A stretch of 64,000 nt of DNA from Prevotella sp. (GTDB lineage: Bacteria > Bacteroidota > Bacteroidia > Bacteroidales > Bacteroidaceae), in contig JAGAON010000003.1 of the NCBI GenBank assembly GCA_017623655.1, positions 327,601 to 391,600 on the forward strand. The letters run 5' to 3'. Shown one piece after another: positions 19,332 to 64,000 of this stretch (within the stretch, counting starts at the first letter, position 1; each line of letters begins with the position of its first letter). The translations under genes and the position numbers were made by a program. The notes beneath the pieces were generated by a model. It made no database searches. It was given only the letters and a program-made list of their open reading frames with translations, and had not been told where the DNA came from.

Positions 19332-19644
19332 GAACCCCGAAGGGGTGACAGAACATAGCACAGGGTGTTAACCCTGTGTTTATGTGTCATGTCCGCAAAA
19401 CGTATCGGGAACCCCGAAGCCGATAGGCGAGGCGGGTATTGGCTGCCGAGGGGTGATATACCTATCGTATATCACGCGCTGCGATACAAATATATGGTAG
19501 TGGTTCTTTACGGTATTGTGTCACCCCTCGTCGCACGTCGTGCTCCTCGCCTGCCGGCTTCGGGGTTCCCGATACCATTTTTTGCATGTAATACTAACAC
19601 AGGGTTAACACCCTGTGCTATGTTCTGTCACCCTTTCAGGGTTC
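19332..19644. repeat. repeat D, ~313-bp nested inverted repeat
   Basis: Outer arms GAACCCCGAAGGGGTGACAG...CACAGGGTGTTAACCCTGTG and their complement. An inner pair follows: GGGAACCCCGAAGCCGATAG with GCCGGCTTCGGGGTTCCCGA. The middle contains CTCGTCGCACGTCGTGCTCC. Copies at 26588 and 31396. Confidence 0.85.
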
Positions 19645-26587: not shown

Positions 26588-26903
26588 GAACCCCGAAAGG
26601 GTGACAGAATACAGCCCAGGGTGTCAACCCTGGGAATTGTAGCGTTTGACGATAAAATGTATTGGCACCCCGCAGCCGGCAGGCGAGGAGCACAACGTGC
26701 GACGAGGGGTGTTGAATCTCTGTTTGTCGTGATTTTGTTTTTCCTGTGTGGCCGTTTCTGTTTCCTCGCACCATTTTTCACCCCTCGCTGCCCTGCGGGC
26801 ATCTCGCCTTCCGGCTGCGGGGTGCCGATACTGTTATTTGCATTCACCGTCCGCCTCCCCGGGGTTGACACCCCGGGCTGTATTCTGTCACCCCTTTGGG
26901 GTT
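26588..26903. repeat. repeat D, ~316-bp nested inverted repeat
   Basis: Same outline as the copy at 19332, but diverged: GAACCCCGAAAGGGTGACAG at the left, CTGTCACCCCTTTGGGGTTC at the right, and inner arms around CACCCCGCAGCCGGCAGGCG. Confidence 0.8.
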
Positions 26904-28915: not shown

Positions 28916-29248
28916 TAAGCAGTAATCGTTTTTGCCGTTTTTCATCGTAAGGAAATCTGCAACTGACAGCTGACTGTGAAGAAAGTTGCCTCTACACCCT
29001 GAAAGGGTGGTATAATATAGGATAGGGTGTAAACCCTATCTTTAATGGCTTTCACCCTCGCAAGCCCTGTAAGGGCGGTATATTTTCATATTTTGGCAAT
29101 GACATTAAGCGGCAATGTGGAATTATGTCGCACCTACGGCGCTCGCTGTTATTATAGATTATGCGCATAGATAGGGCTTACACCCTATCCTTTATTATGC
29201 CGCACCTACGGTGCTGTCATAGTTAACAACTGACAACAGAATGGGCAG
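28916..29248. repeat. gap filled by a D-like repeat
   Basis: From about 28994 to 29215: ACCCTGAAAGGGTGGTATAA, GGATAGGGTGTAAACCCTATC, then a later inverted ATAGGGCTTACACCCTATCC and CGCACCTACGGTGC twice. It resembles the D family in layout (paired small palindromes at each end) but is a separate sequence class. No gene in the gap. Confidence 0.65.
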
Positions 29249-31395: not shown

Positions 31396-31709
31396 GAACC
31401 CCGAAGGGGTGACAGAATATAGCACAGGGTGTAAACCCTGTGTTCAGATGTGATGCTCGCAAAACGTATTGGGAACCCCGAAGCCGATAGGCGAGGCGGG
31501 TATTGGCCGCCGAGGGGTGAAATACCTATCGTATATCATGTGTTGCGACACGAATATATGGTAGTGCTTTTTTGCAGTGTTGTGTCACCCCTCGTCGCAC
31601 GTTGTGCTCCTCGCCTGCCGGCTTCGGGGTTTCCGATACAATTTTTTCGTCCTAAATGGTAACACAGGGTTTACACCCTGTGCTTGGATATTTCACCCCT
31701 TCGGGGTTC
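31396..31709. repeat. repeat D, ~314-bp nested inverted repeat
   Basis: Very similar to the copy at 19332, including TGGGAACCCCGAAGCCGATA, GAGGCGGGTATTGG and CTCGTCGCACGTTGTGCTCC. The near-identity over this length points to recent spread or gene conversion. Confidence 0.85.
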
Positions 31710-53052: not shown

Positions 53053-53340
53053 CAGCGGTTTACCATTGTTCTCTTCTGCGGAAAACACGGTGGAGTGCAG
53101 CGGAAACCTCTATTTATGGAAATAGCGTTTATCGTGCGCTATGTCTCTGACATTCCGAAATTCTCGCAAAATTTCTTCCAAGTCAGGGCAGTAGCAGCAG
53201 GTAGATGCTCATAGGTGACGTATATTCGCCTGGCTATGTCATGCCCATCGCTTTATCATGTAAAGGTGTATTGTGGCGTGATGTGTCAGGTATCGTATAT
53301 CTCATCGGCGTGGGTATCTTGCTGTTGCTCGTCCAACTTG
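53053..53340 (+). other. second copy of the polysaccharide leader, orphaned
   Basis: Parallels 44662-44943: TTTACCATTGTTCTC, GTGGAGTGCAG, GGAAATAGCGTTTAT, TCTCGCAAAATTTCTTCC, CAGTAGCAGCAGGTAGATG, GTGTCAGGTATCGTATATCT. Diverged throughout by substitutions and small indels, so it is an old copy, not an assembly artefact. Confidence 0.6.
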
Positions 53341-53529
53341 GAAGGGCAATGCGAGAAGCCTCGGAATGTGGGACGAGTAACAGGATCAGACTCTCACGCT
53401 TGAACTTATTTCAACTTTCTATAACGCTGATAATCAACTAAAACACAAGGTTCTACCCATTGTTTGATACCACAAAGTTCCCATAGCATAGAAGTATCTC
53501 AAATTACAATTACACTAACCTTTAGTTAT

Positions 53530-54042
53530 TCATTGTGATTTGCCATAACTTTCGATGGGTTCTGCCACCATGCTATATTCTTCTTCTGTTCTCTCATATG
53601 ATTTGATACTTTTATCTTCAAGATAGATATGGTAAAGCGTGTATTCCAAAGCTTCTAAAGTCTGTTGGCGGACTTTTGATTTTAATTGACATTCCCAAAC
53701 AGTAATACAATGCCATCCCATCGAAGTTATCTGTTGCCGTTCCTCTATATCCCTACTCCGATTACGCTCAATTTTATTCTTCCAAAATTCAACATTTGTC
53801 TTTGGTAGAACGTAGTATTTGCATCCTTCGTGACCGTGCCAAAAGCAACCATTTACGAAAATAACAGTTCTGTATTTGCGCAAAACCAAGTCGGGATGCC
53901 CAGGAAGCCGTGGATGATTCAGTCTATACCGAAACCCACGGCCGAACAAGAACTTTCTCACCAGCAATTCTGGCTTCGTATTCTTGCTTTTTATCGCAGA
54001 CATACAACGATGGCGCTGCTCTTGGGTCAAGACATCAACCAT
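53530..54042 (-). CDS. vsr: very short patch repair endonuclease Vsr
   Basis: 170 residues. Vsr nicks T:G mismatches that arise by deamination of 5-methylcytosine and normally accompanies a Dcm-type methyltransferase. Motifs: MSAIKSKNTKPELLVRK, LPGHPDLVLRKYRTVIFVNGCFWHGHEGC (Asp51; zinc-binding Cys/His), FWKNKIERNRSRD and GWHCITVWECQL. At the position of E. coli His64 there is Asn (VNGCFW). The ATG overlaps the herA stop by eight bases. No methyltransferase is in the window. It is the last gene of the defence run. Confidence 0.93.
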   Translation of the reverse strand: MVDVLTQEQRHRCMSAIKSKNTKPELLVRKFLFGRGFRYRLNHPRLPGHPDLVLRKYRTVIFVNGCFWHGHEGCKYYVLPKTNVEFWKNKIERNRSRDIEERQQITSMGWHCITVWECQLKSKVRQQTLEALEYTLYHIYLEDKSIKSYERTEEEYSMVAEPIESYGKSQ

Positions 54043-56113
54043 TGCATTTGTTATTTTTGTCTTTATCAGTCACAACTTCTTTGTAAAACCATTCCATCTT
54101 AATGTCACAGTTCTTGCTATTTGGTGCTGGCTCAGCTTCTTTAATTTTAACCATAATTGGCATAGGTACACAATTTCCGAAGATTAACGCCTCACCAGGA
54201 ACAGCTTGTTTGATTTTTGTTATATAATCTTCACTGAAGTATGGAAGAACTGAATAGATATATTTCATATCAACTTCGTTCTGTATTCTATGAACGATAT
54301 AGTTTCCACATTGCGACAAAACCGTCTGGGATAACTCTGAGGGTCTTTGTGAAGATATAATCAAATATAGAGAGTATTTCCGGCCTTCTCGTGCTATTTT
54401 TTCAAAAATATTCTCACGCATTATGTAATTAGCGTCTTTTCGAATATAGCGATGTGCTTCATCAAGAATCAGATGTATTGGTTTTTGCTGTCGCAATTTC
54501 CCAAACTTATGTTTTCTATAATCGAACACCATTCGAGATACGACACTTGTCATCAATTCTAAAGCATCCGTTCCCACTTCACTCGAATCTATAGTGATAA
54601 GTTGTTTGCTTTTTCCCTCAGAATCTGAGATGCCAAACATTTTTTCTAAGTAGTCATTGCAATCTTGATAATCTGGAGTTTCAATACGCATAAACGCGCA
54701 CTCTGGGTTATAAAGAAAGAAATCCAACCGACTCATCAGCGTAGATGTGAAGTCTCTAATGTGCAGATTACCATGAGCCTCTTCTTCCAAAAGTACCATA
54801 TCAACCGCAGTTCGCAGATAGTGGTAATCAAAGTATTTACCAGGCATAAGCTTGTTTTGGTCTACCGACAAAGCATCACTTTCATCGATTTGTCGGAATG
54901 CACCTTCTGTTTGGGTACCTGAAAGGTTCGCTTCGCAATGGTCACGATGTTTTGTTATACATACGTATTTCGGCTTGTCTTCTATAGCTGTAAAAAGATT
55001 AAGTGCATTAGACAAGGAATCATTATTGTTGCCAAAGTTAACCACGCACAGGTCGTTACATGCATTGAGAAAGTTAGAAAGATCTGTCAAGACATTATTA
55101 TCAGCATCATCACCAAGACCTCGATCGCATGTCTGCCTAAGCATTGCGATAGCTCCTTTTGCCGCTGTCATTTTGGAGGTGTCACTATCTATTCTGCTTA
55201 CAATATTGAATAGCATTTGCTGTAATTTCCATTTGATATAATTGGCAAATCGATGAGTATCGTTTCTTTTATCAGTATTGAAAATGCTATAAAACTTATA
55301 ACTCTCTTGAAGGACTCTGTCCCAGAACGGTTTTTGAGTTCGTTCCGATGCCATTAAAAATGACAACCACTCATCAAGGTTCATCAAATAATAAGGTAAT
55401 ATGAACCGTTTATGTACACCATTCTCCTCACATATATTAGGCTTATAGAAAATAGATTCTATCTCGTTATTCAAATGTGCCTCTACTCCCAAAGCCATAG
55501 GATATTCACCATTTGCATCGAATATGATTGTTTTGGCTCCTATAGCTTCATTTTCATGCTTGCGATATACTTCATGCAAAATATGAGCTATTGTATTAGA
55601 CTTGCCGCTACCACTATTCCCAAGTACGGCTGAATGTATATTGAAGAAACGGTTGATATCAAGTTCTATAGAGTAATTAATCAAACTTTTACTTGTCCCA
55701 ATGAAAATTGTTGAATGTACGCCTTCAATGTCATATCCTTCATTACAAGACAATATTGAATCCAAATCATTAAAAGTCACGATTTCCACGTCACTATACA
55801 AAGAAGGGAAAATACCCACACCCATACAGAACTTTTCGTGCATTAATGTTCCTATTGGCTTAATGATAATCTCTCTTGAACTGTCGAGATTATATGTACT
55901 ATATACTTGATTTTCCTTGCCTACCCAATCAACTATTGATACCACCTCACACAAAATATACTCTCCTGAAGAGTTTATTGTCTTCAAGTAACTACCAATA
56001 TTGCCAAAATAGTATACTTTTCCATCAATATTGACAGTAGAGTTTCTTGTAGTGTGAAACAAACGAACTCTAAACTTGTCATATTCCACTGATATTATTT
56101 TACCTATTTTCAT
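54035..56113 (-). CDS. herA: HerA-like hexameric ATPase of a SIR2-HerA defence pair
   Basis: 692 residues from the ATG at 56113 (MKIGKIISVEYDKFRV); a TTG four codons up is possible. An N-terminal HAS-barrel-like part (1-150) is followed by the HerA/FtsK RecA-fold: Walker A VLGNSGSGKSNT (about 163-174), Walker B LILDEAHRYIRK (548-559) and SSQRPSEL (about 588-595). These ATPases form hexameric rings on DNA. The overlap with the SIR2 gene (14 bases) and the vsr gene (8 bases) implies joint expression. SIR2-HerA pairs are known anti-phage systems that deplete NAD on infection. Confidence 0.9.
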   Translation of the reverse strand: MKIGKIISVEYDKFRVRLFHTTRNSTVNIDGKVYYFGNIGSYLKTINSSGEYILCEVVSIVDWVGKENQVYSTYNLDSSREIIIKPIGTLMHEKFCMGVGIFPSLYSDVEIVTFNDLDSILSCNEGYDIEGVHSTIFIGTSKSLINYSIELDINRFFNIHSAVLGNSGSGKSNTIAHILHEVYRKHENEAIGAKTIIFDANGEYPMALGVEAHLNNEIESIFYKPNICEENGVHKRFILPYYLMNLDEWLSFLMASERTQKPFWDRVLQESYKFYSIFNTDKRNDTHRFANYIKWKLQQMLFNIVSRIDSDTSKMTAAKGAIAMLRQTCDRGLGDDADNNVLTDLSNFLNACNDLCVVNFGNNNDSLSNALNLFTAIEDKPKYVCITKHRDHCEANLSGTQTEGAFRQIDESDALSVDQNKLMPGKYFDYHYLRTAVDMVLLEEEAHGNLHIRDFTSTLMSRLDFFLYNPECAFMRIETPDYQDCNDYLEKMFGISDSEGKSKQLITIDSSEVGTDALELMTSVVSRMVFDYRKHKFGKLRQQKPIHLILDEAHRYIRKDANYIMRENIFEKIAREGRKYSLYLIISSQRPSELSQTVLSQCGNYIVHRIQNEVDMKYIYSVLPYFSEDYITKIKQAVPGEALIFGNCVPMPIMVKIKEAEPAPNSKNCDIKMEWFYKEVVTDKDKNNKCNG

Positions 56114-57374
56114 CTTTTGTTTCAATCTTTAAGCTTTCGACGAATCGGTTAAGTACATTTTCTTCTTTTTGGAATGTGTCAAGATTTGGCAAGAGATTAT
56201 TAACTATATAATCAAAGTAATTAATTGTTCCCTTTTTATCCTTTTTGTCTTCGTCATTATACTCTATCCCACTAATTGTAAAGATGCGCTTATCGTCAAT
56301 AAAGAAGATTGGCTTAGTTTTCTTTTCCTCGATTTTTGGTTTGGAGCCAAAGATCACCACATTTATAGTTGAATTAGTAGCCAAGGCCCTATATATTATA
56401 TCGTTTACATGCCTGTCACTGAAACTATATCCTATAACAAATAGGACAGAATGTGGTTCTAGTAATTTGTTTTGGAACTCGCGAAAGAGGTCAACATATG
56501 GGCTGCCCAAGCTTTTGTCCTGCTTTGTTGGGGTGGGATATATTAGAACAGAGCCATTGGGGGTTGTTTCAGAAGGAACAACTTCCTCAATCTCGAAATA
56601 ATTATTAGTTTGATTATGCGATTCACGCCAATTGACAGAACCATGAATTTTATAAAGATATACCATATTTTCAACAGGTTCATATTTGTCAATACTAGTG
56701 TCCATTCGTTTAGACCATGTATAGTTGAAAATAGCAGGATTAAAGTACTTGTGAAGTCCTCCGCTAAAACCATTAATGTAATGAATATTTAATGCGTCAA
56801 GAGCTGTTTCACTGAACAAATCGTTATTTGTCGTAAACACTCGAATTCTGGAATTATCCTTAGTCCTAAGAGCCAACTTTTGATAGAAAGTTTTATAGTA
56901 TCCTAAGACCTTATTGTGATTATCTTTATCGAACCCAATATTGATACTGTTAAAAATATGCTTTTCAACTTTATCTATCATGGCTTCATAAAGTTTCAAC
57001 CAAGATTCTATGTTCTCTTGTTGCTCCTTGACCGTGATCTCTATCCCCTGATAATGTGTTCTTGCGGCATACATTACTGTCAGACATTTCTCTAAATTGC
57101 TTTCACATTTTGCAGCGATACTTTTGAACTCTGTTTCCATTTCTTTCTCTTCGGCGGTGAAGGACAACGAAGTATAAAGTTCCGACATTGTAGGAATTGC
57201 TCCACTACTTGTGCCGGACCCAAAAAGAAAATTGACATTTTTCAAATTAAACAACTCTCGTATCTTGTCCTTAAGTAAAGAAAGCTGTTCTTCAAAATTA
57301 GAACCCGATTGAAAATAATCAGAAGTGCCTTGGGTCATAACCAAGTCACCAAATTTATGTTTATTATCTGTCAT
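56100..57374 (-). CDS. SIR2-domain NADase of a SIR2-HerA defence pair
   Basis: 424 residues from the ATG at 57374 (MTDNKHKFGD); a GTG two codons up also fits. SIR2-like fold: NFLFGSGTSSGAIPT (about 48-62, NAD loop), FTTNNDLFSE (180-189), YKIHGSVNW (241-249, catalytic His near 244) and FVIGYSFSDRHVNDII near 315-328. The long helical insert after the first motif (about 75-165) is typical of defence SIR2 proteins. It would hydrolyse NAD when activated, with HerA as partner. It lies 40 bases after the AlbA_2 gene. Confidence 0.9.
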   Translation of the reverse strand: MTDNKHKFGDLVMTQGTSDYFQSGSNFEEQLSLLKDKIRELFNLKNVNFLFGSGTSSGAIPTMSELYTSLSFTAEEKEMETEFKSIAAKCESNLEKCLTVMYAARTHYQGIEITVKEQQENIESWLKLYEAMIDKVEKHIFNSINIGFDKDNHNKVLGYYKTFYQKLALRTKDNSRIRVFTTNNDLFSETALDALNIHYINGFSGGLHKYFNPAIFNYTWSKRMDTSIDKYEPVENMVYLYKIHGSVNWRESHNQTNNYFEIEEVVPSETTPNGSVLIYPTPTKQDKSLGSPYVDLFREFQNKLLEPHSVLFVIGYSFSDRHVNDIIYRALATNSTINVVIFGSKPKIEEKKTKPIFFIDDKRIFTISGIEYNDEDKKDKKGTINYFDYIVNNLLPNLDTFQKEENVLNRFVESLKIETKDENR

Positions 57375-57414
57375 AATCACTTGTCAATATGAGGTTGTTA
57401 ATTCAAATTTGTCT

Positions 57415-58914
57415 TTATATTCTATCAAAGAATCCCTCGTATTCTTCGTCGATAATCTTCCATTCTCCCATTTTTCGCCCACCTATACGAGCTATCTTTC
57501 CTAATTCTTGAAGACGTCTCAGGTATTTCTGAACCTGGCGAGGTGAAAGATCCATGCTCTCGCTCATTTGTATAGCGCTGATATGAGGATTTTGAGAAAT
57601 CAACTTGTATATCTGGCGACTTGCTTTTACGAACTCTTTTGCGAACTTGGACGGTCCTTTTACGAACTCTTTTACGACCACTTCGCCATTGTCTTTTACG
57701 AACTCTTGTATTAAGGGAATGTTGTCTGGCGTGAGTTCTTCCATTATCTCACCCTTATAATTCAAGTTCCATAGAGTCACGTGAAATTCAGAAGCATTGG
57801 AGGTGAATGCTGGTACATGGTAGTCTGAAAGATGCTCATAAAGCCTATATGTGTTTATGATCTTCTTCATTCCACTGCCTCGTCTCTCCATAAGTCCCAA
57901 TCTACTGAAGAAATCAGCCAGCAAGGGATTCCTTCTTTTGGATGGCACTGTAAGTGGGTTTAACTGCTGGATAAGCCTGCCGTCCATCATTCCTCCAGGT
58001 GAGTATATTTCTAAACGGTCGTCATACATATCTATGTGTATCTCACTTCCCATCTGCATATAATCCCTATGGATAATGGCATTTGCTATCGCTTCTGTTA
58101 CGGCACGTTCTGGATAATCAGGCAGTTCCTCACGATAGTCATTCTCTTTCCACCATTTCTTCCGGGAATTGTTCCTGACAAAAGAAACGGCATCCTGTAA
58201 CTGGCTTATCACGCAACCTTCTAATTCCACATCATCAATCGCTTCACCTAAGCCGCTTGTCATATCAAGACCATTCCAGCGTGTGCAAAATATACGTGAC
58301 TGCCGAACAGGAGATTCATCAGCCAATAATGCACCAGCATTTGTCAACATACCATTTTCATCAATGATTCCCCACGAAACGAACTCATTGTCTTCAAACG
58401 AACGCTGTAGCCTTTTGTAGTGGACAGACTTGAGTTTGGAGAATGCCATATCCTCAAATCTATAATTGGAAGGCAAACTGTCATATGTGCGCCCGGAACC
58501 TTTCAACACAAGTGTTTTCAGTTGAGTGCGGTCTGCTGTAACAGACTCATTGCCTATGCGTACAAAGGCGATGCGCTGTTTGTCGCCAATGTAATAATAT
58601 GGCGTTTCCTGTCCGGGATATACATGCAATAATACAAGGGTTTTACCTTCTGCTTCCTTTAGTTCAAGATTGACTGCAGGAACTGGATCCATTTTACTCT
58701 TAATCTCCTCACTTATTCTCTCTGCATCGCCTTTTGCGTCAGCGAGTCCGACTATATGGTCATCATCACTGACACCAAATATCAACGTGCCGCCCTCGCC
58801 ATTAGCAAAAGCCGATACACTCTTGAGCCAACTTTTAGGGCGTTTGACCTCAAGCATCTGTTTCTTGTCATAGGTTGTAGCTTCACCTATGAGTTTCTGT
58901 ATATCTGTATTCAT
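57415..58914 (-). CDS. AlbA_2 / HATPase-like putative regulator with winged helix
   Basis: 499 residues. The AlbA_2 (Schlafen-like) domain spans about 14-125, with LEVKRPKSWLKSVSAFANGEGGTLIFGV and the YIGDKQRIAFVRIGNESV strand. A GHKL-like segment (266-312) has ERAVTEAIANAIIHRDY and YDDRLEIYSPGGM. Residues 404-431 repeat EFVK units (QEFVKDNG, KEFVKGPS, KEFVKAS), then a winged helix (about 436-490, ISAIQMSESMDLSPRQVQKYLRRLQELGKI). This layout is common in Bacteroidales and thought to be regulatory; target unknown. ATG overlaps the LlaJI-like stop by four bases (ATGA), linking it to the restriction module upstream. Confidence 0.85.
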   Translation of the reverse strand: MNTDIQKLIGEATTYDKKQMLEVKRPKSWLKSVSAFANGEGGTLIFGVSDDDHIVGLADAKGDAERISEEIKSKMDPVPAVNLELKEAEGKTLVLLHVYPGQETPYYYIGDKQRIAFVRIGNESVTADRTQLKTLVLKGSGRTYDSLPSNYRFEDMAFSKLKSVHYKRLQRSFEDNEFVSWGIIDENGMLTNAGALLADESPVRQSRIFCTRWNGLDMTSGLGEAIDDVELEGCVISQLQDAVSFVRNNSRKKWWKENDYREELPDYPERAVTEAIANAIIHRDYMQMGSEIHIDMYDDRLEIYSPGGMMDGRLIQQLNPLTVPSKRRNPLLADFFSRLGLMERRGSGMKKIINTYRLYEHLSDYHVPAFTSNASEFHVTLWNLNYKGEIMEELTPDNIPLIQEFVKDNGEVVVKEFVKGPSKFAKEFVKASRQIYKLISQNPHISAIQMSESMDLSPRQVQKYLRRLQELGKIARIGGRKMGEWKIIDEEYEGFFDRI

Positions 58915-61082
58915 GCGTCATTGTTTTCTTTTATTAAACTCTTTATGGATAACAAGTGTGGTGAGTAACTATCACCACTCTTGGTAATGGGAGTGAAATC
59001 CAATTCGCCAAATGCAGGGATTGCATTCAGTTCTGCATTATAGACAAGATAGATGGATGCTCCTTTCTTTGTCGTCACCATATCTGTCATCTCATTTGCG
59101 GAAATCAGCCTCGGCCCTTTCCCATCAACGAAGAAGGCAGCATATTTGTTGCTTTTGTTGTGGATAATGAGATATTTGGCAGTGGTAAAACCTTCAACCA
59201 ATTGCAATGTAGCTCCATTCATATTCAGTGCTATGCCAAGTTTGCCAGTCTGCTTCATTTTTGCCACAGCATTGTCGAAATGTATTCCCTCTTTAGTTAC
59301 ACATAGAGCCAATTCTTGATCTTTTGGCTTTACTGCTACATTGGCAGCAATGGCAGGCAGCACTTCGTCCGGATTCTGCCCTAAACTACAAGGTTCCACA
59401 TAGAAGAACTCGGACAATGCCGCCTTAATATCTTCATTGTCACCTTCTGGATCTTTATTATCCAATGCAAGCGAATAAGTCTTTTCGTCTGCGAATGGAG
59501 TATAAATCTTGCCAACAACGTTCTTGAAGTTTCGCCTGATATATTCTTCTCCATCGACTCCCGGACGGGCACGCATGGCATAGAAGTCATAATCCTTTTG
59601 CAGCCATTCTTGTATTTCTTTGCGGAACTTGTCCCTAATGTCATTCTTCCATCTGGCTTTCTGTGATATGTTGTCACGCGCATAGAGTGACAACACAAAT
59701 AAGAAGTTCACATCATAGTGGAACAACAGAAGAGTGTCACGGTCGAACAGGCGGTTTTTGAATTGCTCCTTCTTGTGCTTGTTCTTCTTGCGGTCTGTTT
59801 TCTCAATCCCATCATTGGAATAGTCAAACACCATATCCATCTTCGCACTTATGAAGAAGTTAGGTATGATATTGTAGCCTTCTGTCACATCATCACGCAG
59901 GCGTACACCAGACTTCGTCTCTCCACCCACATTGAAGATGTCCAGATTCCATTGGATTACGTTGCGGGCGTATGTATATTGCTTGTAAATGGATTCTGTG
60001 GTCAGTTCATGACCAATCTTATAATACTTGCTGTCACCAATGTAGTATGTCTGCTTTGCTTCGCCGTCAATCAGACTTGGCGCAGAGAAAAGATGGTCAA
60101 CGATTTTCCCGTCCTCCTGTTTCTTTTCCATACCGTCTGGAAGAGGTTTGTCGCCAATCAGTTCGTCAATGATTGCTTCAAAGACAATATAGAAATTCTT
60201 GACCAGCAAGTATTCTTTCTGCTCTGTGTTGATGAACACCTGCCGTGACTCGTCAAAGAAAGCATAACAAAGTTGCCATAGCTCCAAAGCCTTGTCTGAG
60301 AAATACTTGTACTTGATTTGCAGCAACCTTGTCTTGCCATAACCTTTCAGATAGGTTGCAAACTGTTTACCCTTGACAAGTTCAAACTGGCAGCTTATTT
60401 CCTTGGAGAATCCGTAGGTGTCACCGATATAATTCAATATGGAGAAGAAGATGACAAGCAGTTCCTCATCGAAGTTTATTTTCCGTTTCTTGTTTACGGG
60501 GTTCAGATAGATGGGACGGTTTCGCTGCACAATGGCTGTTGTCGTGCCGATGGTGCGCGTCCAGTTTATCTTATTGAAGCCGGAATGAAGATTTTTCAGT
60601 ATAAAAAAGAAAAAGTTCTGGTTCTCGCGATTAAACTGTATCAAAGACAACAAGATGTCAAGATAGGTATTGCTCAGCCTGCGCTGTCCCTTGCCCACTT
60701 GCGCTATTTGGGCATGATAAATGATGGAACTGTCGGTTTGTTTGTCGTTCTTGTAAACCACGATTGCCCGATAAACCCATACCGCAAATTTATAGATGAA
60801 ATCCCGCTCCCTTTGAGAAAGCGGATTCTTTTTGTCAAGGTTTGCAATGTCCTCTGGCTTGTACTTGCCGAAAACCAAATCCGGACTGTAAGCAGCGTCT
60901 GCGCCTCCCTGTAGTAATACTTTAGGAAGAATAAATACGCAGTCCTTCAATAGGCTGTTGTAATAATAGCCTACATAATGTATTGACCCCTTGCCCTCTA
61001 TGTTGGTCAAGGGGTCAATGCCGTGGAGGATGTCCTTCACGGCAGCCACTTCGTATTGATATTCTTCAATGAGGATGCGCAT
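58911..61082 (-). CDS. McrC/LlaJI-like restriction nuclease subunit
   Basis: 723 residues, longer than a typical McrC. The middle carries a PD-(D/E)xK core: Glu302 in VFEAIIDEL, Asp329 in KIVDHLFS, and Asp350-x-Lys352 in YYIGDSKYY. This matches the LlaJI-type partner of McrB-like NTPases. The N-terminal ~200 residues bind partner or DNA, by analogy. The C-terminal ~170 residues (from about 550, with LALCVTKEGIHFDNAVAKM and KYLIIHNKSNKYAAFFVDG) are a separate block I do not recognise. It overlaps the McrB-like stop by one base. Likely cuts modified or invading DNA as a complex. Confidence 0.82.
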   Translation of the reverse strand: MRILIEEYQYEVAAVKDILHGIDPLTNIEGKGSIHYVGYYYNSLLKDCVFILPKVLLQGGADAAYSPDLVFGKYKPEDIANLDKKNPLSQRERDFIYKFAVWVYRAIVVYKNDKQTDSSIIYHAQIAQVGKGQRRLSNTYLDILLSLIQFNRENQNFFFFILKNLHSGFNKINWTRTIGTTTAIVQRNRPIYLNPVNKKRKINFDEELLVIFFSILNYIGDTYGFSKEISCQFELVKGKQFATYLKGYGKTRLLQIKYKYFSDKALELWQLCYAFFDESRQVFINTEQKEYLLVKNFYIVFEAIIDELIGDKPLPDGMEKKQEDGKIVDHLFSAPSLIDGEAKQTYYIGDSKYYKIGHELTTESIYKQYTYARNVIQWNLDIFNVGGETKSGVRLRDDVTEGYNIIPNFFISAKMDMVFDYSNDGIEKTDRKKNKHKKEQFKNRLFDRDTLLLFHYDVNFLFVLSLYARDNISQKARWKNDIRDKFRKEIQEWLQKDYDFYAMRARPGVDGEEYIRRNFKNVVGKIYTPFADEKTYSLALDNKDPEGDNEDIKAALSEFFYVEPCSLGQNPDEVLPAIAANVAVKPKDQELALCVTKEGIHFDNAVAKMKQTGKLGIALNMNGATLQLVEGFTTAKYLIIHNKSNKYAAFFVDGKGPRLISANEMTDMVTTKKGASIYLVYNAELNAIPAFGELDFTPITKSGDSYSPHLLSIKSLIKENNDA

Positions 61083-62797
61083 TAGTTAATCCTTTCAATA
61101 CTTATATCCAACTTTTGTTTTACGTTCTGTATGAACTTCCTAAATAAGGCTTCTGTCCAGCCCATAATCAACCAGGCAATAGAGTTTCCCCATTCAATTT
61201 TGACACGCCTTTTATTTGCAAATGGTTGATTGTCATTGGGTGATGGTTGCCATGTGGGGACTAATAGATTATTCCTTTCGGCAATACCATTCCAAAGTTG
61301 AATCATTTCATCAACTGAAATGTTCTCGTTCTGCTTTGCATAATTTTCAATTATGTATCGAACTGCATTTGGGGTGGAAAATTGTTCAGAACTCCCATTA
61401 ATAGAATATTTGGGTATTGTCTTACCATTGGAATTTTCAGACTCATCGTCAACCTCCTCTGAGTATTCTTCTATTGGCATCATCCCAAGGTTTTCAAGGA
61501 ACATCTTAATCTTCCCCTCATTCACATTACCATTTGCCATATAGAATTTGTCAAACGAGAGTTTTGTTTTCTCATTATCTTCATTGTCGTCAAATATTTT
61601 GTCGTCAAATCCGAAATCCTTGAACACATAGTTCCATAGGTAGAAGATGACTTTGCAAACGAATGTTTCTGCACTGATGATATTGTTCTTAGCCTTACAG
61701 AAGAAAAAGCCCAATTGCTTGTCTTCCGAATTGGTCGTGTCAAAAACATGCTTATTGATAGTTCTGACAAAAGTCCACCAATCGTATAAGCCACCATCAA
61801 CATCTATCATCCAATTCAATTCTTTTCCATTGTCATTTCCCTTGAAAATAGGCACGTACTTCCAATCCCAACGGCGTTTAAAGGCACTGTCTATTGGGAA
61901 CAGACTCTGGTCGGAGGTATTCATCGTAGCGCGGATATAGAGGTTACTTGGCAAAAGCAGTTCCTTTCCCGTCTTTATATTAGGGTAATCTGCTATCTCC
62001 ACGTCCTCGAATGCTTTGCTCAAATGTTTCTGTAAATCCCGATCAGCTCTTATGGCATACTCAGAATAGCCATCATCACCTCTGTCCAAAAGCTGGAACA
62101 AATCACCGAATACCTGAGCACAGTTGCCACGGTTGATTTCCTCGATTATCAAGAACTCAGGCTCATCTCTGTTCTTCCATGCATCAATGTAAGCTTGCAA
62201 GAAAGCCTGTTCTACAAACTCGTAGGTGATAATCTGTTCCATGACAGGCACTCCATCTCTTGTCATAGGTTTGTTGTAGATGTCATATCTTTGCACACTC
62301 TCTGTGGTAGGCTTGTATGCCCCAACAAATGTGGAATAGTCGCTGTCGGGATGGAAGGTCGTCCTTACCACTCTGTCTCGCCCTTCCCATGCTTCTGTTT
62401 CCTTTTTCACGGCATGGGACTTACCTGTGCCTGGTGCACCGTAAAAGATTTGTTGAAAGGGGGTATTGATACATTTTAATGCCGTTTGCATATGATTTAT
62501 ATCTCCGGAAAAATCATCTTCAAGAAGCATTTTTGCCATGGTGACAAGAGACGCTGCATAACCATATTCAAATTTGTCTATTCTACTTTTCCCTACTAAA
62601 GCCTCTCTTACATCATTCGCTACTGCATCAGGATGTTGGCTGACGTATTTTGTGAATTCATCCAAAAGTGCTTTTGATATTGTACGAATCCCCTTTGCTC
62701 CTTTACTGGCATTCTCCACCTGATAGCACAATCTATCTTCGTCCACAATAACAATGTTACCGAGTGGAGAGACATCACCTATTTTTAACTTTCTCAT
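61082..62797 (-). CDS. McrB-like AAA+ NTPase
   Basis: 571 residues. The N-terminal ~110 residues are the probable DNA- or base-reading part. Then an AAA+ motor: Walker A FYGAPGTGKSHAV (118-130), HPDSDYSTFVGAYKP, Walker B FLIIEEINRGNCAQVFGDLFQLLDR (215-239), the McrB signature MNTSD (292-296) and AFKRRWDW. These place it with McrB/LlaJI motors that translocate DNA using GTP or ATP. The remaining ~250 residues are helical. Stop overlaps the nuclease start (TAATG); the FRG gene ends 12 bases upstream. Confidence 0.9.
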   Translation of the reverse strand: MRKLKIGDVSPLGNIVIVDEDRLCYQVENASKGAKGIRTISKALLDEFTKYVSQHPDAVANDVREALVGKSRIDKFEYGYAASLVTMAKMLLEDDFSGDINHMQTALKCINTPFQQIFYGAPGTGKSHAVKKETEAWEGRDRVVRTTFHPDSDYSTFVGAYKPTTESVQRYDIYNKPMTRDGVPVMEQIITYEFVEQAFLQAYIDAWKNRDEPEFLIIEEINRGNCAQVFGDLFQLLDRGDDGYSEYAIRADRDLQKHLSKAFEDVEIADYPNIKTGKELLLPSNLYIRATMNTSDQSLFPIDSAFKRRWDWKYVPIFKGNDNGKELNWMIDVDGGLYDWWTFVRTINKHVFDTTNSEDKQLGFFFCKAKNNIISAETFVCKVIFYLWNYVFKDFGFDDKIFDDNEDNEKTKLSFDKFYMANGNVNEGKIKMFLENLGMMPIEEYSEEVDDESENSNGKTIPKYSINGSSEQFSTPNAVRYIIENYAKQNENISVDEMIQLWNGIAERNNLLVPTWQPSPNDNQPFANKRRVKIEWGNSIAWLIMGWTEALFRKFIQNVKQKLDISIERIN

Positions 62798-62809
62798 ATA
62801 ATTCCTTCT

Positions 62810-63814
62810 TTATTCTCTGTGACTGTCAGGAAAACTTCCTGGATATTTTTTATGATAGTTATTAATAATGTATTCTAATTCCAAATCCGTATATTTAAAT
62901 GGAGACGTAGAATAGAAATGACATCCTCTTTCTTCCAATGCTTTCTTGGCAAATTCATAAGAAACATCATATTTAGATGAATGTATGACTTTTTGCAAAG
63001 AATCTTCGCCGTACATACGATATTTGCTCATTTCCCGTATTTTCTCTGCCATTGGGTCATAAGGCAACAGTAGCTTTCCTTCATCAAAATAATCATAACA
63101 TCTTTTTGATGCTTGCGGATTTTGCCAAAAGAAAAATCTAATAGGACAGATTGCATTAAAATCTTCTCCTTTTCGCAGTTCCGCTCCGTAGGCACGTTGT
63201 TCACCAGGACGTGCCAAAGCCTCCATACCTATGGGAAGTATATAGTCTTTACGATTTCTGTCAAAATTAGAAAGGAATCCACCTGTTGGCATAAAATATA
63301 TGACACCTTTTGTGATAGACCATGGGATTGGAATATAGCAATTAGTAATTAGATCATAATATGTTGTTGCAAAAAATGCGGCGACCCCGAAACTGTTGGT
63401 TAGATCCATAATGTTTGTGTCAATTCCATAGTGCTGTGCTAATCCTGTATAATTTACAACTAAACCATTGTCTTTTAAATCTTTAATTTCCGGATTTTTA
63501 TCTAAAATCGTTTTGAAATCCTCAAACTTAATGTCTCTTTCTAGCAAATCTAATTCAGACATTTCTTTCCTGTATAACGAAGGATAAGAGGGGGAATGAA
63601 AAAGATTTTGTCCACGAAATAACGGAGACATTGGCATAGGTGCTGCAACCAATCGGTTTGCCTCCAATTGCATGATTTCAAAATTAGGCGCTGCATACCA
63701 ACCAAAACTCCATCCGCTTTTTATGTGAAGATAGTCATATACGTCAAAAATATCGCGGAAAACATATTTCCCAGAACGGATATCTTCATTAGATACATTT
63801 GACCAGCGTTCCAT
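62810..63814 (-). CDS. FRG-domain protein
   Basis: 334 residues. The FRG domain is named for its FRGQ motif, seen here as LFRGQNLF (65-72). The second hallmark follows: YTGLAQHYGIDTNIMDLTN (122-140) with FGVAAFFAT. A conserved Arg and Asp are thus in place. The domain recurs in phage-defence neighbourhoods, but its biochemical action is not established. The N-terminus (residues 1-50, YDYLHIKSGWSFGWYAAPN) and the C-terminal helical part (KALEERGCHFYSTSPFKYTDLE) are not recognised. It lies between the XRE regulator (2-base gap) and the McrB-like gene. Confidence 0.85.
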   Translation of the reverse strand: MERWSNVSNEDIRSGKYVFRDIFDVYDYLHIKSGWSFGWYAAPNFEIMQLEANRLVAAPMPMSPLFRGQNLFHSPSYPSLYRKEMSELDLLERDIKFEDFKTILDKNPEIKDLKDNGLVVNYTGLAQHYGIDTNIMDLTNSFGVAAFFATTYYDLITNCYIPIPWSITKGVIYFMPTGGFLSNFDRNRKDYILPIGMEALARPGEQRAYGAELRKGEDFNAICPIRFFFWQNPQASKRCYDYFDEGKLLLPYDPMAEKIREMSKYRMYGEDSLQKVIHSSKYDVSYEFAKKALEERGCHFYSTSPFKYTDLELEYIINNYHKKYPGSFPDSHRE

Positions 63815-63816
63815 TT

Positions 63817-64000
63817 CTATTCTATCTCATAATTAAAATCTGCCTCTATGAGGTCTTTAATATCTACCTTGAGCAATTTGGCAATCTCAACGAATTGCAT
63901 CATAGATGGTTGAATCTTATTTGTTTTCCATCGTGAAACTGTCATATCAGTAACGCCCATTTGTTCCGCCAACCATCGGTTGGTTATTTCTTTTTCAGCT
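63817..64000 (-). CDS. XRE-family helix-turn-helix regulator, 3' part only
   Basis: Sixty C-terminal residues before the stop at 63817; the start lies beyond the right edge. NRWLAEQMGVTDMTVSRWKT is a lambda-repressor/Cro-type helix-turn-helix, followed by QPSMMQFVEIAKLLKVDIKDLIE, the usual closing helices. Two bases separate it from the FRG gene. The position at the head of a restriction operon suits a controller (C-protein-like) role, which is an inference. Confidence 0.85.
   Translation of the reverse strand, partial: AEKEITNRWLAEQMGVTDMTVSRWKTNKIQPSMMQFVEIAKLLKVDIKDLIEADFNYEIE

Follow-up and report, generated by a model that had tools for sequence, protein, structure and literature searches.

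Gene organization of the locus

The window, a stretch of 64,000 nucleotides from a Prevotella sp. contig, carries a run of eight genes, all called on the minus strand and following one another from XRE to vsr in the order given by the sequence-only reading. The features of the run, together with one domain and the adjacent element end, are as follows.

63817..64000, minus strand: HTH regulator of the XRE/Cro type, truncated 5′ where the contig stops (HTH_3, 8.9e-7)
62810..63814, minus strand: FRG-domain protein, 334 aa (FRG, 7.4e-12; PDC-S15 of PADLOC, 2e-9)
61082..62797, minus strand: McrB/R1.LlaJI-like AAA+ GTPase, 571 aa (AAA_5, 1.2e-8; Walker A/B and MNxxD)
62441..62797, minus strand: N-terminal domain of McrB, named NTD-A here (alignment of 11 sequences)
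58911..61082, minus strand: R2.LlaJI/McrC-like PD-(D/E)xK nuclease, 723 aa (30-member alignment)
57415..58914, minus strand: AlbA_2 protein, 499 aa (SLFN_AlbA_2, HATPase_c_4 and winged HTH)
56100..57374, minus strand: SIR2 NADase-type protein of the SIR2-HerA pair, predicted inserted module (PADLOC SIR2, 4.4e-144)
54035..56113, minus strand: HerA ATPase of the SIR2-HerA pair, predicted inserted module (HerA DUF87; PADLOC HerA, 8.3e-230)
53530..54042, minus strand: Vsr endonuclease, predicted restriction module (Vsr, 1e-33)
53395..53404, minus strand: right element end, TTCAAGCGTG (end shared by complete copies of the mobile element)

With ATG starts taken at 57374 for SIR2 and at 56113 for HerA, the spacings claimed from XRE to vsr (gaps of 2, 12 and 40 bases and overlaps of 1, 4, 14 and 8 bases) are reproduced exactly. 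The XRE gene is indeed present at the start of the run, but it is truncated at 391600, where assembled contig and window both stop; in the related copy L044 it is a 74-aa ORF (L044 7042-7266). The ORF calls leave the reading frames of all genes of the run open, and inspection of the sequences found the expected motifs in McrB, nuclease, SIR2, HerA and Vsr. GC content is 0.347 for SIR2, 0.360 for HerA and 0.356 for FRG versus 0.401-0.428 for McrB, nuclease, AlbA_2 and vsr.

The run as part of a mobile element

Window positions 53304-64000 (10.7 kb) are 98.8% identical to L044, a locus from another genome of the genus, and because this second genome holds all eight genes, the packing exceeds what chance co-location would give, as had been proposed. 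The run is the cargo end of an integrative, probably mobilizable, Bacteroidales element of about 21 kb. Upstream of the run, L044 contains genes for a MobPre relaxase, DUF6371, DUF3987 and HTH_17 proteins together with two integrases; both element ends are present in it and are common to L044 and L049, the two complete copies, in each of which AAGCGTG starts the left end too. Integrases, MobPre (detected by Pfam in L044 and by similarity in L049) and defined ends thus occur in both copies. In the window just the cargo and the right end are assembled, and a search of the host contigs did not find the element backbone, the window and the complete copy both being contigs of incomplete assemblies. 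Candidates for exchanged 3′ cargo are SIR2-HerA in the window, Avs2-like and viperin-like proteins in L049 and, in L062, a related operon, a HamB-like helicase.

A promoter-like site of the Bacteroidota type, TTTG-N19-TAnnTTTG, lies just 5′ of XRE in both complete element copies, and scanning both strands of window positions 53300-64000 for that one promoter type yielded no match; L049 has one more match, within the AlbA_2 gene. Since the site precedes XRE and the pattern has no match in the window's run, a single transcription unit is plausible.

Restriction core and methyltransferase content

The set XRE-FRG-McrB-nuclease-AlbA_2-vsr is, by predicted gene content, a LlaJI/McrBC-type restriction operon devoid of methyltransferase. 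Genes of the McrB-like GTPase and the nuclease are adjacent and overlap by 1 base; McrB matches PRK11331 of NCBIfam (1.7e-9, 36.9 bits), far under the cut-off of 637. The "LlaJI" label previously given to the nuclease has no direct model match behind it (none in Pfam, PADLOC or NCBIfam at E ≤ 0.001) and stands by way of relatives, RE_LlaJI being matched by 6 of the 30 aligned homologues (best 2.1e-8, searched up to E 1). All 30 sequences keep D329, D350 and K352 of the D...(D/E)xK motif unchanged. Searches for nuclease relatives returned none in viral contigs and a single one in plasmids, in Pedobacter.

FRG-McrB-nuclease-AlbA_2 proved to be a real block, recurring without SIR2-HerA in L049 and as a degraded copy in L045, where FRG and AlbA_2 persist as fragments. 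AlbA_2 likewise comes after the nuclease in L045 (fragment), L047, L048 and L049. The role of a bridge between modules proposed for AlbA_2 was rejected; this protein accompanies the nuclease, also in L047, a relative that bears a methyltransferase. FRG occupies the position where many relatives have a methyltransferase. Passages of PMC9503650 suggest an ART/NADase role for FRG domains, and the FRG protein of the run is a candidate ADP-ribosyltransferase-fold NADase effector.

NTD-A retains 31 invariant columns across the 11 aligned sequences and has no credible match in Pfam or PDB, neither of which links it to a homologue with an established function or structure; it is a conserved domain, undescribed in the libraries searched. 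In several loci the partners of NTD-A McrB are FRG, HNH_2, RhuM, Fic or Bro-N proteins, and in L093 NTD-A is found on an AAA protein adjoining a DUF2357-PDDEXK_7 nuclease. Plasmid records contained no relatives of the domain, and phage records one, an unannotated faecal record with NTD-A McrB, nuclease and no methyltransferase flagged, which is likely bacterial DNA.

An upstream m5C methyltransferase was detected in 0 of 15 NTD-A loci versus 34 of 45 loci with other N-termini (Fisher p 1.5e-7, a value overstating independence since the loci are related by descent); these counts supersede the 0/12 versus 17/24 of a smaller earlier locus set. At least 1 kb upstream was needed for a locus to be counted, whereby L048 and L198 (NTD-A) and L050, L060 and L211 (others) were dropped; L196 (the same as L053), L222 (the L044 element, cut short of McrB) and L088 (the same as L045) were left out. 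For m5C enzymes the profile was one made for this analysis out of nine ORFs chosen on their motifs, one of them (L047) confirmed as PF00145. Nuclease matches were obtained in 35 genomes of the genus, with 28 loci fetched from 27 of them (L195-L221 and L223) plus L222; the genus set also comprises the window's genome and G347 (L092), and excludes G599, G620, G634, G687 and G703 for short or weak matches. Lack of methyltransferase is not confined to NTD-A loci: 11 of the 45 others are without the m5C enzyme and 7 without any methyltransferase flagged.

No methyltransferase is present in the window's run, the DNA 5′ of XRE being unassembled there, and none was flagged in the complete L044 element. 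Two m5C methyltransferase genes lie elsewhere in the host genome, each on another contig and directly after a co-directional ORF, which could be its restriction partner. Because of these two enzymes, a nuclease that simply depended on 5mC would be liable to cut the DNA of its own host, unless it had a different target.

Position of vsr

Vsr usually accompanies m5C methylation. The protein of the run exceeds the Pfam and NCBIfam cut-offs and has the conserved catalytic residues, and a partner methyltransferase was not found in the window operon. Of the 15 NTD-A loci 7 retain vsr, a persistence that a pure 5mC-repair role leaves unexplained. The gene follows AlbA_2 directly, with no insert, in L047 (fragment) and L048, while L049 has a degraded vsr start immediately 3′ of AlbA_2; it follows the nuclease in L046, L050, L056, L064 and L065. 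Because in relatives vsr accompanies the nuclease and not HerA, we assign Vsr to the restriction side. A HerA-Vsr unit was considered and rejected, vsr standing beside none of nine other SIR2-HerA pairs. On the mismatch map a recombination breakpoint lies inside vsr: over its 5′ 326 bases the gene shows no difference from L044, and its 3′ part is divergent, with the first mismatch at 53716.

SIR2-HerA as an inserted module

Both proteins match chains of solved SIR2-HerA entries in PDB (e.g., 8j4u and 8su9), and both score far below the NCBIfam anti-phage models, with 116.7 bits versus a cut-off of 500 for SIR2 and 189.3 versus 850 for HerA. Judged by position and composition, the pair is a lower-GC module slotted between AlbA_2 and vsr. 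Among 65 McrB-like loci SIR2-HerA lies near McrB in one, which belongs to the same element, and the flanks analysed around nine other SIR2-HerA pairs contain neither McrB, nuclease, FRG nor vsr. These nine come from eleven HerA loci with flanks, taken from 55 other genomes with HerA matches (order and family sets); L079 and L142, where HerA has no SIR2 match beside it, were not counted as pairs. HerA relatives were absent from viral contigs, and 637 plasmid records contained them, all below 60% identity.

Interpretation and alternatives

We consider it fairly probable, reasoning from gene content and comparison of relatives, that two independent systems are stacked here on one promoter, a methylase-independent, perhaps modification-dependent, restriction system and one that depletes NAD. 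What NTD-A of McrB recognises in foreign DNA would be a feature, most likely a modified base, for which no methylase partner is required; translocation of McrB along the DNA and cutting by the nuclease would follow, as in McrBC, with FRG as a putative accessory NAD-using effector. The complete SIR2-HerA pair, apparently inserted between AlbA_2 and vsr, would work alone, as known complexes do, depleting NAD upon infection and sharing with the host operon just promoter and mobility. Both systems are probably expressed together, and most likely they function separately.

In the single composite system that the sequence-only reading had suggested, FRG and AlbA_2 would pass a signal from DNA cutting by McrB and nuclease to NAD depletion by SIR2-HerA. 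Close packing in common orientation and the lack of Bacteroidota-type promoter matches within the window's run agree with this, as does the roughly 99.9% identity of AlbA_2-SIR2-HerA in two hosts, implying that the arrangement has been transferred whole on at least one occasion; two distant SIR2-HerA pairs (L075 and L140) even have an AlbA_2-family gene beside HerA, but it is just 21-28% identical. However, among the 65 McrB-like loci the combination was seen in one element only, the FRG-McrB-nuclease-AlbA_2 block does without SIR2-HerA in L049, and GC differs between the modules, though FRG is also low. Since in the loci compared the two modules occur almost always apart, the composite system is not supported, and we regard it as quite unlikely.

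An ordinary Type II LlaJI-like R-M system, served in trans by a methyltransferase encoded elsewhere in the host genome, would suit both the two host m5C enzymes and the usual company of Vsr, but each of these enzymes has a possible restriction partner of its own, none of the 15 NTD-A loci has such a gene upstream, and a mobile element relying on a methylase of its host would put most new hosts in danger; this alternative seems unlikely. That the run is a collection of defence genes in decay and no longer functional, as the degraded state of L045 might imply, is very improbable given open frames and present motifs; SIR2 and HerA differ from L044 by 0 and 1 amino acids, respectively, but with one synonymous change each this is too little to gauge selection.

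Beyond the stacked arrangement favoured here, NTD-A could tentatively, at somewhat less than even confidence, define a novel class of restriction systems, derived from LlaJI and free of methyltransferase, within the bacterial family to which the window belongs, with one fixed target, interchangeable partners (FRG, HNH_2, RhuM, Fic and Bro-N) and a 3′ end where vsr, as homology anchor, makes a loading site swapping whole unrelated defence systems under one promoter. The vsr breakpoint would be a concrete route for such exchange of defence cargo within an operon. If NTD-A reads a modified base, it would add a new modification reader and suggest a path from LlaJI-like R-M to Type IV-like systems via N-terminal domain swap and methylase loss. 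A multi-gene defence locus may thus resemble one machine yet be two, a methylase-free restriction operon and a nested NAD-depleting system.

Comparison with known systems

Vsr of the run shares family match and conserved residues with known representatives and differs in residing in an operon without methyltransferase partner. With LlaJI (R1/R2 and two m5C methyltransferases, Lactococcus pNP40) the run shares the order of McrB-like GTPase and PD-(D/E)xK subunit, whereas the window operon and its L044 copy lack a methyltransferase, and the operon has FRG, AlbA_2 and Vsr. In the passages of PMC1459862 dealing with LlaJI, the R1 subunit binds DNA and has a unique N-terminal half, and McrBC is said to act alone on methylated DNA while LlaJI acts with methylases on unmethylated DNA; NTD-A is likened to this half of R1 by its description. 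Type IV McrBC, assigned ADAM/DUF3578 on McrB and DUF2357 on McrC in passages of PMC11090510, resembles the run in having no methyltransferase in the operon and in combining an MNxxD GTPase with a nuclease, but the window proteins match neither DUF3578 nor DUF2357 in Pfam, and their nuclease is of LlaJI type. As for the SIR2-HerA anti-phage system, the window pair is distinguished by being nested, within a mobile element, in an operon of a different defence system and by scores far under the anti-phage cut-offs of NCBIfam, and has in common with it the adjacent genes of both families, recognised by PADLOC and PDB matches, and the active motifs.

Gene run and family assignments

Eight genes, all transcribed from the minus strand of window 53530..64000, were confirmed where the sequence-only reading had placed them, together with the gaps of 2, 12 and 40 bases and the overlaps of 1, 4, 14 and 8 bases. 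In operon order their Pfam families are HTH (the XRE gene), FRG, AAA_5/McrB, a nuclease without match, SLFN_AlbA_2+HATPase_c_4+winged HTH (the AlbA_2 gene), SIR2_2, HerA DUF87 and Vsr. The XRE gene is truncated, contig C8, which carries the window, and the window itself stopping at the same point; completeness of the host assembly is 60%.

The nuclease found no match in the libraries searched and none among solved structures at E <= 1. Residues D329, D350 and K352 are invariant across 30 aligned homologues, six of which match Pfam RE_LlaJI (best 2.1e-8), and these relatives, along with the position after an McrB-like gene, suggest a nuclease of LlaJI type. For SIR2 and HerA, matches were obtained to chains in solved entries holding both proteins (8j4u, 8su9, 8sub, 8suw, 8uae and 8uaf), but the scores of the two against the NCBIfam anti-phage models lie far under the cut-offs. 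FRG proteins are described, in the accessible part of PMC9503650, as members of the ADP-ribosyltransferase superfamily with possible NADase action.

Association of SIR2-HerA with the restriction module

The dense packing had been read as a possible composite, co-expressed system, in which FRG and AlbA_2 connect DNA-cutting and NAD-depleting modules. Loci of relatives were annotated mechanically by longest open frames, blastp against the window genes and a home-built profile of m5C methyltransferases (nine motif-picked ORFs, one confirmed as PF00145), giving 65 de-duplicated McrB-like loci, 63 of them with a nuclease of the window's family. Within the flanks covered, some of which are short, SIR2-HerA lies near McrB in only one of these 65 (L044), and no match to McrB, nuclease, FRG or vsr was obtained in the fetched flanks of nine other SIR2-HerA pairs (L074-L077, L139-L141, L148 and L149), two of which (L075 and L140) have a distant AlbA_2-family gene adjoining HerA. 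Counts over whole genomes point the same way: among 295 order-level genomes the nuclease occurs in 11, HerA in 31 and both in three, on a single contig only in the window's genome. G441 also holds both, 1.6 Mb apart on its contig. Co-occurrence, within the flanks covered, in 1/65 loci and in none of the nine other pairs renders the composite system unlikely.

SIR2-HerA is situated between AlbA_2 and vsr, and its GC content (SIR2 0.347, HerA 0.360), like that of FRG (0.356), departs from McrB (0.401), nuclease and AlbA_2 (0.428 each) and vsr (0.409), a split which is consistent with insertion of SIR2-HerA. The likely picture is of one module nested in the other on a mobile element, the two being probably independent.

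The mobile element and its 3′ cargo

Search of genome contigs with the nuclease returned 23 loci, including L044 from the Prevotella sp. RGIG4603 MAG, which carries all eight genes and shares 98.8% identity with window 53304-64000. MobPre, DUF6371, DUF3987, HTH_17 and AbiEii genes lie 5′ of its XRE gene, with two tyrosine-integrase matches farther upstream. The AbiEii-type toxin gene and the 231-aa ORF upstream of it, which has no Pfam match, fall at L044 490-2057, with the integrases on one side and the DUF3987/MobPre genes on the other. L049 is a second, diverged copy with a common backbone. Similarity of the two copies starts on the left at one shared point, opening AAGCGTG, and the right end, TTCAAGCGTG, is common to L044, L049 and the window (53395-53404); the element in L044 spans ~21.2 kb as computed from contig coordinates. 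Its exact core site is uncertain, since weak similarity between window and L044 runs ~90 bases past the right end. A search of the rest of the host assembly, which had no positive control, gave no match to the backbone, as expected if the backbone lies beyond the contig end.

One promoter-like site, TTTG-N19-TAnnTTTG, precedes XRE in L044 and in L049, a pattern with no match in window 53300-64000; one further match falls within AlbA_2 in L049 and one outside the element in L044, against a chance expectation of 0.13 per strand per 10.7 kb. Elsewhere in the window, Acido-Lenti-1 RNA matches form four divergent pairs (minus then plus; 19333-19643, 26589-26903, 28995-29215 and 31397-31708) spanning 221-315 bases, the minus members of the first and last lying within 267-nt direct repeats of 91% identity.

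Among relatives, vsr comes straight after the nuclease, or after AlbA_2, for instance in L046, L048, L050, L056, L064, L065, L094, L202 and L204, and L049 has a degraded vsr start immediately 3′ of AlbA_2, ahead of the next cargo. An alignment of the window with L044 shows 135 differing positions, 100 of them at or below 53749, with the first mismatch inside vsr at 53716; identity is 93.7% for vsr and 99.9% for AlbA_2, SIR2 and HerA. Because mismatches concentrate in and past the 3′ portion of vsr, a recombination breakpoint inside vsr is very likely. Cargo differs between loci: in L049, AlbA_2 is followed by a viperin-like radical-SAM protein (1e-16) and by one resembling Avs2 (1.2e-37); L062 has a HamB-like helicase (1.9e-51) with an unassigned 234-aa ORF between nuclease and vsr, and L051 a CD-NTase (2.7e-101) 3′ of the nuclease; AbiH and vsr of L054 are located upstream of its methyltransferases. 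In the few loci scanned, the 3′ end of the operon looks like a recurrent landing place.

The N-terminal domain of McrB

The most interesting lead is the N-terminal domain of the window McrB (residues 1-119, here NTD-A), a predicted recognition domain free of a methylase and common to only some relatives. Eleven aligned examples share 31 invariant columns; no credible match was found in Pfam (best E 0.089-0.13, for two members) and none in the PDB (best E 0.4). It is present in 8/301 family genomes and 2/295 order genomes, the second order-level match being a 50-residue stretch with stops.

Where 1 kb or more of upstream sequence was available, none of 15 NTD-A loci has an m5C methyltransferase in the same direction within the preceding 4 kb, compared with 34 of the 45 remaining loci (Fisher p 1.5e-7, shared ancestry ignored). 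With methyltransferase-like motifs of other kinds counted too, the figures become 1/15, owing to an ORF 3.7 kb upstream in L204, and 38/45, seven other-type loci likewise having no methyltransferase of any flagged kind. Two m5C methyltransferases occur in other arrangements, one ~1 kb upstream and divergently transcribed in L094, and a partial one ~8 kb downstream on the opposite strand in L092. In the same set vsr is retained in 7/15 NTD-A loci vs 14/45 others, a pattern hinting that Vsr does more than repair DNA following methylation by its own operon.

Partner genes at NTD-A loci
FRG: L044, L049; remnant in L045
HNH_2 endonuclease gene, immediately 5′ of the NTD-A McrB gene: L056 7058-7897; L202 5984-6895; L204 12398-13237
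RhuM-family gene, between McrB and nuclease genes: L045, L055
Bro-N, flanking both sides: L090
Fic-domain protein, DUF2357-PDDEXK_7 nuclease and vsr: L093 9218-14904

In L093 the domain sits on a different AAA protein adjoining the DUF2357-PDDEXK_7 nuclease, and NTD-A thus appears to shift from one restriction type to another. Beside McrB, neither FRG nor RhuM was matched in L048, L089, L091, L092, L094, L155, L198 and L207, loci that lay outside the Pfam search of neighbouring genes. RhuM is not limited to NTD-A loci, being found, likewise between the McrB and nuclease genes, alongside a methyltransferase in L195.

Comparison with known systems

Neither the eight-gene arrangement nor NTD-A was found described in the accessible portions of the literature on LlaJI/McrB, FRG, SIR2-HerA, Vsr and nested defence. 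Since the eLife census of McrBC, in its accessible part, leaves methyltransferase-associated McrBC to separate description (PMC11090510), NTD-A may already be covered in such separate work. Vsr-type nuclease domains are also reported, in the available text of PMC12458937, for defence proteins of the YprA family. Specific DNA binding was assigned to the R1 subunit of LlaJI in the portion of PMC1459862 available, where McrBC is said to act alone on methylated DNA and LlaJI together with methylases on unmethylated DNA. The conserved NTD-A, not seen with an operon methylase, fits the McrBC mode, acting alone on methylated DNA, and may read a modified base.
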